Both the position numbers and the translations under genes were made by a program. Under the pieces are notes generated by a model, which did no database searches, had not been told where the DNA came from, and was given only the letters and a program-made list of their open reading frames with translations. Positions 23,597-35,590 of a DNA stretch of 64,000 nt are shown here, piece by piece; position 1 is the first letter of the stretch, and each line of letters opens with the position of its first letter. Source of the DNA: Leadbettera azotonutricia ZAS-9 (GTDB lineage Bacteria; Spirochaetota; Spirochaetia; Treponematales; Breznakiellaceae); contig NC_015577.1 in NCBI RefSeq assembly GCF_000214355.1, positions 1,816,453 to 1,880,452 of the forward strand. The letters run 5' to 3'.

Positions 23597-23612
23597 TATA
23601 CGCATTCTCTTG

Positions 23613-23656
23613 TTGACAATGTTCATTTTTATGCATATACTGACGAAAAATGAACA
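23613..23656 (+). promoter_or_regulatory. Strong promoter with flanking 11-base inverted repeat before ABC importer operon
   Basis: TTGACA (23613-23618), 17 bases, TATACT (23636-23641) is near-consensus sigma-70. A perfect inverted repeat TGTTCATTTTT (23620-23630) and AAAAATGAACA (23646-23656) brackets the -10 box with a 15-base centre. It looks like an operator for a dimeric repressor. The operon ends in a protein with a winged-helix domain, the nearest candidate regulator. Confidence 0.7.
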
Positions 23657-23665
23657 GGGGGCAAC

Positions 23666-24646
23666 ATGATGAAGAAGGCGGCGGCGTTTGCGGTTTTGGC
23701 TCTGGCGGGCTTGATGGCTTTGGCGGGGTGCAAAAAGGAATCGAATAAGGTGGTGATTTATTCCACTTCGGAAGATTACCGTATCGAATATATGCAGAAA
23801 AGGCTCAATGAGCAGTTTCCTCAATACGATATTGCCATCAATTATTATCCTACAGGGAACCTGGCTGCCAAGCTTAAGGCTGAGGGTGTCAGGACCGAGT
23901 GCGACATTATCGGGGAGCTTGAGTCCGGCTATATGGAAGGCATCCTGGACAATCTGGCGGATCTCTCGTCTTATGACAGTTCGGTGTTTTTGCCCGAGAT
24001 TGTGCCTGCCCATCATAAATACCTGCCTTTTTACAAGGGGTCGGGGTGCATTATCTACAGCCAGGATTTCCTCAGAGCGCGGAACCTGCCGGTTCCGTCC
24101 TCGTACCAGGATTTGCTGAACCCTGTTTACAAGGGGGTTCTGACCATGCCCAACCCCAAATCGTCGAGCACGGGGTATTTTTTCCTCAAGAATTTGGTGA
24201 ACGCCATGGGGGAGGACGAGGCTTTTGCCTGGTTTGACGGGTTTGCCAATAATGTGCTTCAGTTCACTTCCTCGGGCTCAGGGCCGGTGAATGCCCTGGT
24301 GCAGGGGGAAGCAGGGATAGGGCTGGGCATGACGTTCCAGGCGGTGACCACTATCAACAATGGCGTGCCGTTGAGCATCAAATTTTTCGATGAGGGTTCC
24401 CCCTATTCGCTTTATGCACTGGGGATTATAAAGGGCAAGGACAGCCGCAAGGCGGTGAAGGATGTGTTTGACTTTTACCTTAACACGGTAAGCAGGGAAG
24501 ACAAGGAGCGCTTTGTCCCTGAGCAGATATTCAAGAATCAGGTGAACACCATCCCCAATTACCCGGCAAATGTAAAATCGGGCGACATGAGGGGCATTGA
24601 AATACTTAGCGAAAAAGAGCGATTATTAGAGAAATGGAAGTATTGA
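23666..24646 (+). CDS. ABC importer substrate-binding lipoprotein (Fbp/PotD-like fold)
   Basis: 326 residues. A lipoprotein signal peptide ends in LAGC, so the protein is anchored on the outer face of the inner membrane. VVIYSTSEDYRIEYMQKRLN and the long two-lobe pattern are typical of type II periplasmic binding proteins that serve Fe3+, polyamine, thiamine or 2-aminoethylphosphonate importers. AGGGGG precedes the ATG. It heads an operon with ATPase, fused permease and a nucleotidyltransferase fusion. The ligand is unknown; the terminal gene hints at an amino-alcohol or phosphonate. Confidence 0.82.
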   Translation: MMKKAAAFAVLALAGLMALAGCKKESNKVVIYSTSEDYRIEYMQKRLNEQFPQYDIAINYYPTGNLAAKLKAEGVRTECDIIGELESGYMEGILDNLADLSSYDSSVFLPEIVPAHHKYLPFYKGSGCIIYSQDFLRARNLPVPSSYQDLLNPVYKGVLTMPNPKSSSTGYFFLKNLVNAMGEDEAFAWFDGFANNVLQFTSSGSGPVNALVQGEAGIGLGMTFQAVTTINNGVPLSIKFFDEGSPYSLYALGIIKGKDSRKAVKDVFDFYLNTVSREDKERFVPEQIFKNQVNTIPNYPANVKSGDMRGIEILSEKERLLEKWKY

Positions 24647-25422
24647 AAACAAAGGTTGATAAACTGGAGGTCAGGGAGCTTTCCCACAGCTTTAGCCTTG
24701 ACCAGAGGGAAGTGCTTCACCGGATAAGCTTTACCGTAAAGGATGGGGAGTTTCTCTCCATCCTGGGGCCTTCCGGCTGCGGCAAGACCACCATACTTCG
24801 CATACTCATCGGCCTTATACAGCCCAGTTCCGGGAAGATTTTTAAGAACGGGGAAGACATAACCGAATATAAACCCTCCGGAAGGAATATGGGCATAGTG
24901 TTCCAGAACTATGCCCTCTTTCAAAACATGAGCGTCCTGGGCAATGTGGAATACGCCCTCAAATTCAACCCCGGGTTGAAAAGCCGTTCAAGGTCAATCG
25001 CGGAAAATGTGATCGACCAGGTGGGCCTTACGGAGCATATCAATAAAAAGCCCTGGAAGCTTTCTGGGGGGCAGCAGCAGAGGGTGGCTATAGCCCGCAC
25101 CCTTGCCCTGAACCCCGAAATAATCCTTTTCGACGAACCTATGTCGGCCCTTGATGCAGCCACCCGCCTTGTATTGCGGGATGAACTGAAAAGGATACAG
25201 GAAAAATTCAAATCCACCATGATCTACGTTACCCACGATCAGGAAGAAGCATTCGCCCTGTCCGACCGTATCATGGTGATGAATCAAGGCGTGATAGAGC
25301 AGCTTGACACTCCCCGGAATATTGTAAAAAACCCTGCAAGCCAATATATGAAAGATTTTGTGATCCACAATTTAAAGCTTAAAATCGATTCTCTTGCCCA
25401 ATACATGGGAGCAGAGGATTGA
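24634..25422 (+). CDS. ABC importer ATPase subunit
   Basis: 262 residues, overlapping the binding-protein gene by 13 bases. Walker [10 protein letters not shown], signature [14 protein letters not shown] and Walker [12 protein letters not shown] are complete, and the switch His is in [16 protein letters not shown]. It belongs to the PotA/FbpC class. The short C-terminus leaves no room for a TOBE regulatory domain. It powers uptake with the permease that overlaps its stop codon. Confidence 0.9.
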
Positions 25423-27002
25423 AATTTGAGCGAATGACCGGTATCAAACTCCTCATCACTGTTTTTTTATTGATAGCGGTGATATTCCCTTTGATTTCCA
25501 TGCTGTCCTATTTGCCGGGCGCGAATGTTTCGCGCATTGTCTCCAATCCCCAATTCAGGCAGGCCCTGATTAATTCGCTGTCCACCGCAGGGATGGGGAC
25601 AGTTATTTCAATTTTGATTGCCTATGTTTTCGCCTACTGCATTGCCCGTACAGGCATGGGGCGGACAGAAATATTTTCGGTATTCGCGACTGTGCCTATG
25701 CTCATCCCTTCGATTTCCCATGGCATGGGGCTCATTATTCTTTTGGGGGCCAACGGGATTATTACCCGGCTATTGGGTTTAAAAACCACGATTTACGGTT
25801 TTTGGGGGATTGTGCTTGGAGGCGTGCTTTACGCGTTTCCTGTGGCCTTCCTCATGCTCGCGGATGTTTTAAAATACGAGGACGGCTCCCCCTACGAGGC
25901 CGCGGAAGTCCTGGGCATACCCCGGAAGAACCGCTTTTTCGCGATAACCTTTCCGTACCTCAGAAAGCCGCTTATATCCGTTGTTTTTGCGGTTTTTACC
26001 ATGATTTTTACAGATTATGGCGTTGCCTTGATGATTGGCGGCCGCTGTACCACCCTGCCTGTGCTTATGTACCAGGAAGTGATAGGGCTTCTTAATTTCA
26101 GCAAGGGCAGCGTAATCGGGGTGATTCTGCTTGCCCCTGCCCTGGCGGCTTTTATTTTTGATCTCCTCAATAAAGACAAGGGGAACCAGTCCTTTGTTGT
26201 TCAAAAAACAGCCCTGGCCAGGCAGCGGCTCCGGGATGCTGCCGCAACCGTGTTTTGCGCGCTGGTATGCCTCATTATTGCCCTTCCCATACTGGTTTTT
26301 GCGTTTTTGACCTTTGTCCGGAAATATCCTGTCGATATGACCACATCACTTTATAATGTTATAACCAGTCTCGAAATGGGCGCCGGAAAATTCCTCCTCA
26401 ATTCATTCATAATCGCCCTGGGGGTTTCCGTAATCGGCACTTTTATTTCTTATACCCTGGCATATTTTACGGCCCGCACTCCGGGGAAGACATCCAAACT
26501 CCTGCATTTAATTTCTATTACTTCATTGGCAATTCCCGGTCTGGTGCTGGGCCTTTCGTATGTGCTTTTTTTCAAAGCCACATTTTTATACGGGACTATA
26601 GCAATTCTTATTTTGGTAAACACCGTGCACTTTGTGGCATCCCCTTATTTAATGGCATATAATTCCCTTGGCAAGCTGAATGCCAATTTGGAGGATGTAG
26701 GCTTCACCCTTGGCATTAAACGTTTTGCGATTGTCAGGGACGTGCTTTTGCCCCAGACTAAATTAACGGTGCTGGAAATGTTTTCGTATTTCTTCGTCAA
26801 TTCCATGATGACTATTTCAGCGGTTTCTTTTTTAAGCACTGTGGGGAATAAGCCCATTGCCCTGATGATAACCCAATTCGAAGCTACCATGCAGCTCGAA
26901 AGCGCGGCTTTTGTTTCCCTATTAATCCTCAGCTGCAATTTCCTAATGAAGGGCTTTATCTATTTTTCACGACGCCGTATTATGAAAAGGGAGGGGATGT
27001 GA
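25419..27002 (+). CDS. ABC importer permease, fused two-domain (FbpB/ThiP-like)
   Basis: 527 residues with about twelve hydrophobic helices in two similar halves. Each half has an EAA-type coupling loop: EAAEVLGIPRKNRFFAITFP in the first and the degenerate EDVGFTLGIKRFAIVRDVLL in the second. This single-chain arrangement is known from FbpB, ThiP and phosphonate-type permeases. It overlaps the ATPase gene by four bases (ATGA style) and the next gene by three. It forms the membrane channel of the importer. Confidence 0.87.
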   Translation: MKFERMTGIKLLITVFLLIAVIFPLISMLSYLPGANVSRIVSNPQFRQALINSLSTAGMGTVISILIAYVFAYCIARTGMGRTEIFSVFATVPMLIPSISHGMGLIILLGANGIITRLLGLKTTIYGFWGIVLGGVLYAFPVAFLMLADVLKYEDGSPYEAAEVLGIPRKNRFFAITFPYLRKPLISVVFAVFTMIFTDYGVALMIGGRCTTLPVLMYQEVIGLLNFSKGSVIGVILLAPALAAFIFDLLNKDKGNQSFVVQKTALARQRLRDAAATVFCALVCLIIALPILVFAFLTFVRKYPVDMTTSLYNVITSLEMGAGKFLLNSFIIALGVSVIGTFISYTLAYFTARTPGKTSKLLHLISITSLAIPGLVLGLSYVLFFKATFLYGTIAILILVNTVHFVASPYLMAYNSLGKLNANLEDVGFTLGIKRFAIVRDVLLPQTKLTVLEMFSYFFVNSMMTISAVSFLSTVGNKPIALMITQFEATMQLESAAFVSLLILSCNFLMKGFIYFSRRRIMKREGM

Positions 27003-27880
27003 TGGAGCTGTCAAGAAACCAGTTCGATATACTCGTATTTCTTGAGGGGCAAAACCCGAATCCTGTTACCCAACGGGGCATCACCAAGCAGGTGGGCCTT
27101 TCCGTAGGCACGGTGAATAAAACTCTCTCCCAGCTGGGCGACCTGGGTTTTTGGGATGGATCTGCCATTACCGGCAAGGGCCTTGAAGCCCTGGAGCCAT
27201 ACCGGGTAAAGCGGGCGATCTTCATAGCAGCCGGCTTTGGCTCCCGCCTTGTGCCCATTACCCTTAACACGCCCAAACCCCTGGTGAGGGTCAAGGGCAA
27301 GCGGATTATAGACACACTCCTGGATGCAGTGGTTGCGGCGGGGATCAAGGATATCATCATTGTGAGGGGCTATCTGGGCGAGCAGTTCGATCAGCTCCTC
27401 TATAAATACCCGGACATCAAATTCCTGGAGAACCCCATTTATAACGAGTCGAACAATATTTCTTCCGTAATGTGCGTGCGTTACCTTATGCAGAACAGCT
27501 ATTTGCTCGAATCGGATCTCTTCCTCAGCAATCCTGCTCTTATCGCCAAGTATCAGTATTCCAGCAATTACCTGGGGGTTCCCACGGAGCGCACCGACGA
27601 CTGGTGCTTTGAGACCAAAAACGGCGTTATCGCTAAAATAAAAGTGGGAGGCAAGAATTGCCACCATATGTTCGGCATCTCCTACTGGAATGCCAAAGAT
27701 GGCGCCAAGCTGGCGGATCATATCAAGCAGGTCTACGACATGCCCGGCGGCAAAGAGCGCTACTGGGATTTGGTCGCCCTGGATTATTTTATAAAGGATT
27801 ACGATATCGAAGTGCGCGAATGCAGCTTCAATGATATTATAGAGATCGACACTTTCAATGAATTAGAAAAAACTGGATGA
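27002..27880 (+). CDS. Winged-helix domain fused to LicC/PntC-like nucleotidyltransferase
   Basis: 292 residues from ATG 27002 (TGATG overlap with the permease stop). Residues 1-60 form a winged helix-turn-helix: SRNQFDILVFLEG, then ITKQVGLSVGTVNKTLSQLG as recognition region. From residue 70 comes a nucleotidyltransferase with AAGFGSRLVPIT and the KPLV motif. This part resembles CTP:phosphocholine and 2-aminoethylphosphonate cytidylyltransferases (LicC, PntC). Such an enzyme would activate an imported amino-alcohol phosphate or phosphonate for attachment to surface glycan or lipid. The fused domain suggests that it also senses or regulates. No kinase gene is adjacent. Confidence 0.8.
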   Translation: MELSRNQFDILVFLEGQNPNPVTQRGITKQVGLSVGTVNKTLSQLGDLGFWDGSAITGKGLEALEPYRVKRAIFIAAGFGSRLVPITLNTPKPLVRVKGKRIIDTLLDAVVAAGIKDIIIVRGYLGEQFDQLLYKYPDIKFLENPIYNESNNISSVMCVRYLMQNSYLLESDLFLSNPALIAKYQYSSNYLGVPTERTDDWCFETKNGVIAKIKVGGKNCHHMFGISYWNAKDGAKLADHIKQVYDMPGGKERYWDLVALDYFIKDYDIEVRECSFNDIIEIDTFNELEKTG

Positions 27881-34516: not shown

Positions 34517-35590
34517 TTATGCCGGGCTTCGGCGGAGTTCCCCCAGTTGCCCGCAGGCGCCGTTCACGCCTCTCCCTTTTTCGTAGCGGAGGGTAACGTT
34601 CAGGCCAAGGGTTTCCAGTGCCCTGGCAAAGGTTCTGACTTTGCCGGGGAGGGGAGGGGCAAGAGGCTTCCCTTCGAAAAAGAGCCCCTCCACGGGGTTC
34701 CAGGGGATGAGGTTCACCACTGCATCCAGGCCCCTTGCAAAACCGGCAAGGGCGGCTGCATCGCTTTGGCTTGTGTTCAAGCCGCCCAGGAGGACCGCCT
34801 CCAGGGTGATGCGCCGGTTTTGGTTTTTCTGATAGTGGACAAGGGCTTCTTTCAGATCGGGCAAGGGGTCGGAAAAGGGCATGAGCCGCTTGCGCAGATC
34901 CTGCCTCGCGGTAGTCAATGAAAGCGCAAGGCGTATGTCGGGGCCATTGGCCGCCAGGTCTTGAATGCCTTTGGCAATGCCGCTGGTGGAAAGGGTGATG
35001 CGCCGTTTGGAGATGTTGAGGCCGCCCTCATCACAGAAGAAGGCGATTGCCTTTCGCAGTTCTTCCAGATTCAGGAGAGGCTCCCCCATACCCATAATGA
35101 CTATGTGGGAAATACCCGGAGACGAACCTTGCCCTCCGGGCCCGGCAGGGGTTCCTGAGGATTTTTGGCGGAGAAAGAGGAATTGGGAAACCATTTCTGT
35201 GCTCGTGAGGTTCCGGGTAAAGCCAAGGCTGCCTGTTTTGCAGAACAGGCAGCCTGCGGGGCAGCCCGCCTGGGTAGAGATGCAGGCTGTTTTTCTGCCT
35301 TCGCCGTCAGAAAGGATCACCGCCTCTATTTTGCTATTGTCTTCCAGGGTTATCTGGAGCTTGACTGTGCCATCTTCGTCTTCGAGGCAATTGCTGGTTT
35401 TCCCGTCATAAAGCCGGTAGTTTTGGTTCAGTTCATCACGCAAAGCCTTGGGGAGGTTGTTCATCCCCTCAAAAGTTTCCACCCCCGCGCATATCCACTG
35501 GCAAATCTGTTTATGCCTGAAACCAGGCAGATGGGGAAGCAGCCCGCAGATTTCCTTGAGGGACAGCCCTGCAAGGGCGGGCCTGGCCAT
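34517..35590 (-). CDS. rlmN: 23S rRNA (adenine-2503-C2)-methyltransferase, dual-specificity
   Basis: Radical-SAM enzyme methylating A2503 of 23S rRNA and A37 of some tRNAs. The cluster motif is in TQAGCPAGCLFCKTG (CxxxCxxC). GMGEPLLN and the catalytic cysteine near the C-terminus (GVNGACGQL) are present. 357 residues is normal. It begins three bases after the TPR gene stop on the same strand. Confidence 0.94.
   Translation of the reverse strand: MARPALAGLSLKEICGLLPHLPGFRHKQICQWICAGVETFEGMNNLPKALRDELNQNYRLYDGKTSNCLEDEDGTVKLQITLEDNSKIEAVILSDGEGRKTACISTQAGCPAGCLFCKTGSLGFTRNLTSTEMVSQFLFLRQKSSGTPAGPGGQGSSPGISHIVIMGMGEPLLNLEELRKAIAFFCDEGGLNISKRRITLSTSGIAKGIQDLAANGPDIRLALSLTTARQDLRKRLMPFSDPLPDLKEALVHYQKNQNRRITLEAVLLGGLNTSQSDAAALAGFARGLDAVVNLIPWNPVEGLFFEGKPLAPPLPGKVRTFARALETLGLNVTLRYEKGRGVNGACGQLGELRRSPA

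Follow-up and report, generated by a model that had tools for sequence, protein, structure and literature searches.

An ABC importer operon in the window (the whole 64-kb stretch of DNA analyzed, part of a treponeme chromosome assembled as a single 3,855,671-bp contig) carries an inverted repeat within its promoter, which raises the question of whether this repeat is an operator and, if so, which protein binds it and in response to what. The full promoter string, TTGACA-A-TGTTCATTTTT-ATGCA-TATACT-GACG-AAAAATGAACA, comprises the following elements:

23613-23618, + strand: -35 box TTGACA of the importer promoter, with the same TTGAC-A-TGTTCA layout in relatives
23620-23630, + strand: left operator arm TGTTCATTTTT, inside the -35/-10 spacer, read directly and conserved
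23636-23641, + strand: -10 box TATACT, between the arms
23646-23656, + strand: right operator arm AAAAATGAACA, over the transcription start expected from the -10 box

An earlier, sequence-only reading of this DNA had described an 11-base perfect inverted repeat around the -10 box of a near-consensus promoter, and direct reading bears out both points. The dyad TGTTCATTTTT-N15-AAAAATGAACA (23620-23656) has perfectly matching 11-bp arms that bracket the importer -10 box, and the promoter (TTGACA/TATACT, 17-bp spacer) agrees with the consensus at 11/12 positions. One arm fills the -35/-10 spacer and the other the region of the start site, and the ATG of the first importer gene (23666) follows the right arm. 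By itself, such a dyad is modest to weak evidence, and it is conservation that is decisive: inverted repeats free of mismatches, with arms of ≥11 bp and loops of 3 to 30, occur just twice in the 64-kb window, the same search returns 0 to 3 (mean, ~0.6) in each shuffled window, and local 80-bp shuffles yield such a repeat in 1/4000 cases. The only other perfect repeat of this kind in the window, at 35226-35255, has 12-bp arms and a 6-bp loop.

Directly upstream of the repeat lies an Rpn/PD-(D/E)XK transposase-like gene (TIGR01784; 22775-23596), the last ~98 bp of which recur at 84-85% identity in two further locations of the genome. Such copying of the Rpn gene, together with the dyads that AT-rich promoters occasionally produce, might suggest that the repeat is a chance occurrence, a terminator, or a part of the neighboring mobile gene, but we regard this as having a negligible probability, as chance is refuted by conservation in many genomes. 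The homology with the other genomic copies stops at 23597, short of the operator, which rejects membership in the Rpn element. An RNA hairpin or terminator is ruled out because the start predicted from the -10 box falls in the right arm, so that only part of the repeat would be transcribed.

The operon encodes, in order, a solute-binding protein, an ATPase, a fused permease, and a 292-aa fusion of a winged helix-turn-helix (wHTH) domain to a nucleotidyltransferase:

23666-24646, + strand: extracellular solute-binding lipoprotein, 2-aminoethylphosphonate (AEP)-transporter-like (best NCBIfam model, phnS2, under the equivalog cutoff)
24634-25422, + strand: ABC transporter ATPase (best NCBIfam model, PhnT2, under the cutoff)
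25419-27002, + strand: fused two-domain ABC permease (best NCBIfam model, PhnU2, under the cutoff)
27002-27208, + strand: MarR-type winged-helix domain, proposed to bind the operator (MarR_2 profile; MepR 4ld5, Z 12.0, rmsd 1.5, 69 aligned)
27209-27880, + strand: LicC/PntC-type cytidylyltransferase domain, proposed AEP cytidylyltransferase and sensor (fold matches to LicC 1jyl and PntC 6pd2)

The AEP transporter models TIGR03261/03262/03265 are each the top-scoring NCBIfam model for their protein, with scores of 155, 368, and 299 bits that lie under the respective equivalog cutoffs of 393, 593, and 458 bits; the assignment to AEP import therefore rests on the regulon context described below. 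The fusion most likely starts at the ATG at 27002, which overlaps the permease stop codon. Its earlier description as a winged helix joined to a nucleotidyltransferase agrees with the MarR_2 match and the LicC-like domain that we found.

Comparison across genomes revealed that the operator core is TGTTCA-N24/25-TGAACA. This core is present, with 0-1 mismatch, at 19/19 spirochete importer operons with an assembled start, namely, that of the window and those of 18 other genomes, where it stands right before the binding-protein gene in 15 and heads a longer or rearranged transcription unit in 3. Among 25 sites picked by hand for illustration, 11/12 core positions are invariant, and the loop is variable save for its A/T richness. 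As an unbiased test, we counted all hexamer dyads with spacers of 10-31 in the promoters of operons with wHTH-nucleotidyltransferase genes. TGTTCA/TGAACA was the best or joint-best dyad in families f1 and f3, in further spirochetes, and in Firmicutes/Actinobacteria, occurring with a spacer of 24-26 in 9/18, 8/12, 3/7, and 7/39 promoters of these four sets, respectively, against 2, 1, 1, and 3 for the runner-up dyads; TGTTCA with a spacer of 25 ranks first, tied in f1 with its own one-base shift. The exact site is absent from 32/39 of the Firmicute/Actinobacterial promoters tested, in some cases because the start of the transcription unit was misjudged. Several Firmicute sites repeat the layout of TTGACA, arm, -10 box, and arm (e.g., TTGACAAATGTTCATGTTTTGTGTATAATGAGGCTGCATTGAACA in L262), and the Firmicute/Actinobacterial fusion homologs are 63-70% identical. 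The check proposed by the sequence-only reading, whether the repeat is conserved ahead of homologous operons, thus comes out positive in two spirochete families and in Firmicutes. Judging from these comparisons, the repeat is a real control site ahead of the import and synthesis genes for AEP, an unusual nutrient, in many gut bacteria.

The nature of the regulon emerged from a strict-pattern scan of the 3.86-Mb genome, which returned just two copies, one at the importer and the other, absent from the earlier note, at the AEP synthesis operon. The second site (genome positions 129788-129824) has the same geometry, with TTGACT, arm, -10 box, and arm, and a start codon 24 bases on. It heads genes for phosphonopyruvate decarboxylase (Ppd; TIGR03297, 481 bits), AEP transaminase (AEPT; TIGR03301, 372 bits), and PEP mutase (PepM; TIGR02320, 403 bits), each scoring over its cutoff, in an operon that is unlinked to the importer operon in this genome. 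The same two operator places recur in G051. Elsewhere, a single operator heads both functions, in the order binding protein-Ppd-AEPT-PepM-ATPase-permease-fusion in G035 and Ppd-AEPT-PepM-binding protein-ATPase-permease-fusion in G122, and several f3 genomes carry the site between PepM and a divergently oriented fusion gene. An operator lies upstream of the PepM operon in 13/22 fusion-positive versus 0/47 fusion-negative genomes (Fisher, 1.3e-8, a P value that overstates independence because the genomes are related); here, the site of the window genome was counted from the genome-wide strict-pattern scan, its start codon being overextended in the locus scan. When PepM loci were scanned whole, the exact site was found in 11/22 fusion-positive and 0/47 fusion-negative genomes, with none in the 425 kb of fusion-negative loci scanned. 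Where fusion-positive genomes lack a PepM site, in most cases PepM has no recognizable Ppd/AEPT beside it or the contig is truncated. In locus L220 (5573-11795), the operator heads the importer genes of an importer-fusion operon, and distant homologs of PepM, Ppd, and PntC-AEPT (35-37% identity) come after that operon. The second operator at the AEP synthesis operon indicates that AEP is the likely substrate of the fusion enzyme, which is probably a PntC-type AEP cytidylyltransferase.

Structural comparisons are consistent with such an activity. The AlphaFold model of the fusion protein (mean pLDDT, 90) superimposes on LicC (1jyl; Z 29.3, rmsd 2.0, 222 aligned) and PntC (6pd2; Z 23.9, rmsd 2.5, 221 aligned), and the enzyme domain displays the LicC/PntC fold, the nucleotide loop, and the catalytic residues, with D107, E216, D218, Y190, and D192 of LicC all kept as D173, E282, D284, Y255, and D257, respectively. 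From the sequence and the model, the enzyme is therefore predicted to be catalytically intact. The position of LicC D105 is occupied by Glu171, matching E104 of the AEP-specific PntC of Treponema denticola (PMC6697681), and this glutamate is kept in 29/30 and 52/56 homologs in two sets. The equivalent of T. denticola PntC Glu196 is instead Asp257, as in LicC (D192), so we do not claim full PntC specificity from the sequence.

In the same genome, the AEP transaminase (L117, 5047-6642, minus strand) retains an N-terminal PntC domain that is still in frame but has decayed, with loss of the nucleotide-binding loop and the ESD motif. Because this usual PntC domain is degraded, the fusion is probably the AEP cytidylyltransferase of this genome. 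The PntC domain is likewise decayed in G035, is missing from the 372-375-aa transaminases of G051 and G122, and is intact in G071 and G183, relatives without the fusion protein; in f3, the fusion protein coexists with an intact PntC-AEPT. Read most simply, this distribution means that the formation of CMP-AEP has passed to the winged-helix enzyme, which would make it from CTP and AEP.

A regulator of phosphocholine metabolism, with the LicC-wHTH protein sensing choline phosphate or CDP-choline, would accord with LicC being the closest solved structure by both sequence and fold, with the LicC-like Asp257, and with an operator in G009 that heads an operon of LicCA, BCCT, and fusion genes. We consider this very unlikely in view of the second site at the AEP synthesis operon, both here and in relatives, the prevalence of Glu171, and the decay of PntC in the window genome. 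Moreover, searches of this genome retrieved no choline kinase, LicD, or phosphonatase above the cutoff, which disfavors both choline use and AEP breakdown by phosphonatase. The genomic context thus favors AEP over phosphocholine as the substrate.

Nevertheless, some members of the family may serve choline, as the operators of G009 and L258 adjoin LicCA-like genes. In G009 (L059/L216), the operator heads genes for a LicCA-like kinase/cytidylyltransferase, a BCCT transporter, and a wHTH fusion with Asp at position 171, and in L258 (Lachnospiraceae) the site is near a LicCA-like gene; the case for the latter is the weaker of the two. As a marker for choline, Asp171 had to be rejected, since it fits only G009 and three Firmicute homologs share it with no choline genes found nearby. 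A 589-aa wHTH-LicCA fusion in L073 (G269) adjoins a nucleotidyltransferase with a truncated wHTH, and wHTH-LicCA-like proteins are present in several f3 treponemes. Winged-helix LicC fusions may hence be a wider theme.

The affinities of the wHTH domain bear on what binds the operator. Scanned alone, it matches MarR_2 at 27.4 bits (cutoff, 27), and MarR-family structures head its fold-comparison list, although phmmer searches against solved regulators gave no significant match. BirA is not among the structures on the list, which carries no weight either way. The first helix begins at residue 5 and the enzyme domain follows the wHTH directly, so the N- and C-terminal dimerization helices of full MarR regulators are lacking. 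Across f1, the putative recognition helix, SVGTVNK, hardly varies. Most f1 sites combine Lys41 with TGTTCAT, and those of f3 combine Ser/Thr41 with TGTTCAA; G240 and G103 are exceptions, and for this reason we make no firm claim of covariation between the recognition helix and the operator.

A real AEP operator could also be bound by a separate, unlinked transcription factor of the same phylogenetic distribution, with the fusion wHTH having another role or being vestigial. The unlinked position of the two transcription units in the window genome would be compatible with such a factor, but we judge it improbable, since the fusion gene lies in or beside an operator-bearing unit in many genomes of two phyla, the recognition helix is nearly invariant in f1, and two natural losses of the wHTH, in G124 (none) and G269 (truncated), are both without the operator. 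The sequence-only reading had named operons with the repeat but without the winged-helix domain as evidence against the pairing; one such case, an unclear one, was seen in G146, a MAG of 86% completeness in which the gene behind the site, on a contig of 5 kb, encodes a binding protein of the importer type. Eight f1 genomes lacking the fusion gene gave strict-pattern matches, of which only that of G146 looks genuine, and most others were discarded as lying inside open reading frames, having shifted spacing, or being long palindromes with other genes (G277, G283). The long GTTCAATTTGGA palindromes of L107 and L108 (G283 and G277) are near ATPase and MazEF-like genes and have similar letters in an unrelated context. 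The comparative evidence thus favors a pairing of the fusion with the operator, which is probably bound by a pathway enzyme with its own DNA-binding domain.

On the basis of these observations, we consider it likely that the repeat is the operator of an AEP regulon and that the fourth-gene fusion is a BirA-like enzyme-repressor that closes both import and synthesis. The feedback loop that had been hypothesized from the sequence finds support in the comparative evidence, with AEP the likely ligand. In the proposed mechanism, at high levels of AEP or CMP-AEP, probably the effector, the enzyme in its liganded state would occupy the two operators through its wHTH and turn off import and synthesis, much as BirA responds to biotin; the importer-plus-regulator operon would thereby be autoregulated, and the regulon would consist of the two transcription units in the window genome. 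The half-sites TGTTCA and TGAACA are ~31 bp, or roughly three helical turns, apart and therefore on one face of the DNA, which suggests a symmetric pair of widely spaced winged helices, probably arising from dimerization through the enzyme domains. As the operator straddles the -10 box and spans from just past the -35 box to the start site, its occupancy should block RNA polymerase.

The opposite polarity, in which AEP frees the fusion protein or makes it an activator, with import and synthesis increasing as a result, has a precedent in the many MarR proteins that let go of DNA on binding a ligand. We nonetheless find it unlikely, because the arms overlap the core promoter from -35 to +1 in the promoters inspected, which fits occlusion, and because regulating synthesis and import together is more in keeping with repression by an end product than with induction by a substrate. 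The layout therefore points to repression, exerted as end-product feedback.

Several known systems offer points of comparison. Like BirA, the group II biotin protein ligase-repressor, which acts on an inverted-repeat operator and controls biosynthesis genes as well as uptake genes in Staphylococcus aureus (PMC6391492), the fusion combines an N-terminal winged helix with a pathway enzyme predicted to be intact, and its dyad operator overlaps both synthesis and uptake promoters. Unlike BirA, the fusion has a LicC/PntC-fold nucleotidyltransferase in place of a biotin ligase, its winged helix is of the MarR type, and the regulator gene lies inside the importer operon that it putatively controls. 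The parallel is hence one of working principle, by analogy, and not of family membership. The T. denticola PntC-AEPT (6pd1/6pd2; PMC6697681) shares the fold, the Glu at one of two AEP-contact positions, and the context of PepM, Ppd, and AEP transaminase, but it is joined to AEP transaminase rather than a winged helix and is only ~22% identical to the fusion; the paper describing it mentions neither an HTH nor regulation. LicC, the CTP:phosphocholine cytidylyltransferase (1jyk/1jyl), is the closest solved relative (35% identity) and has the same catalytic residues, but it has no DNA-binding domain, prefers phosphocholine, and has Asp105 in place of Glu171. AEP transport genes are also controlled by known regulators of AEP use such as AepR and PhnR, but these are LysR-type proteins and global two-component systems that belong to AEP breakdown, whereas the fusion would be an enzyme-regulator of AEP synthesis plus import (PMC8316502, PMC9311074). 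Our literature search, in which subscription journals were mostly outside the coverage, retrieved neither a LicC/PntC protein fused to an HTH nor any regulator of AEP synthesis.

Whether these proteins form a hitherto undescribed class of enzyme-repressors, spanning spirochetes, Firmicutes, and at least one actinobacterium and built on an AEP cytidylyltransferase that senses AEP or CMP-AEP in the active site and represses phosphonate synthesis and import by way of its MarR-type wHTH, is in our estimate an evenly balanced question. Phosphonate decoration of bacterial cell surfaces is common, and for phosphonate synthesis the present analysis supplies a concrete candidate regulator, operator (TGTTCA-N25-TGAACA), and regulon. 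It also offers a handle for sorting LicC-like enzymes into those acting on AEP and those acting on choline. Few enzymes act as repressors of the pathway to which they belong, among them BirA, NadR, and PutA; if the proposal is true, the fusion would join them as an unrelated case. For the organisms concerned, it predicts that the salvage and the synthesis of AEP are alternatives under one switch.
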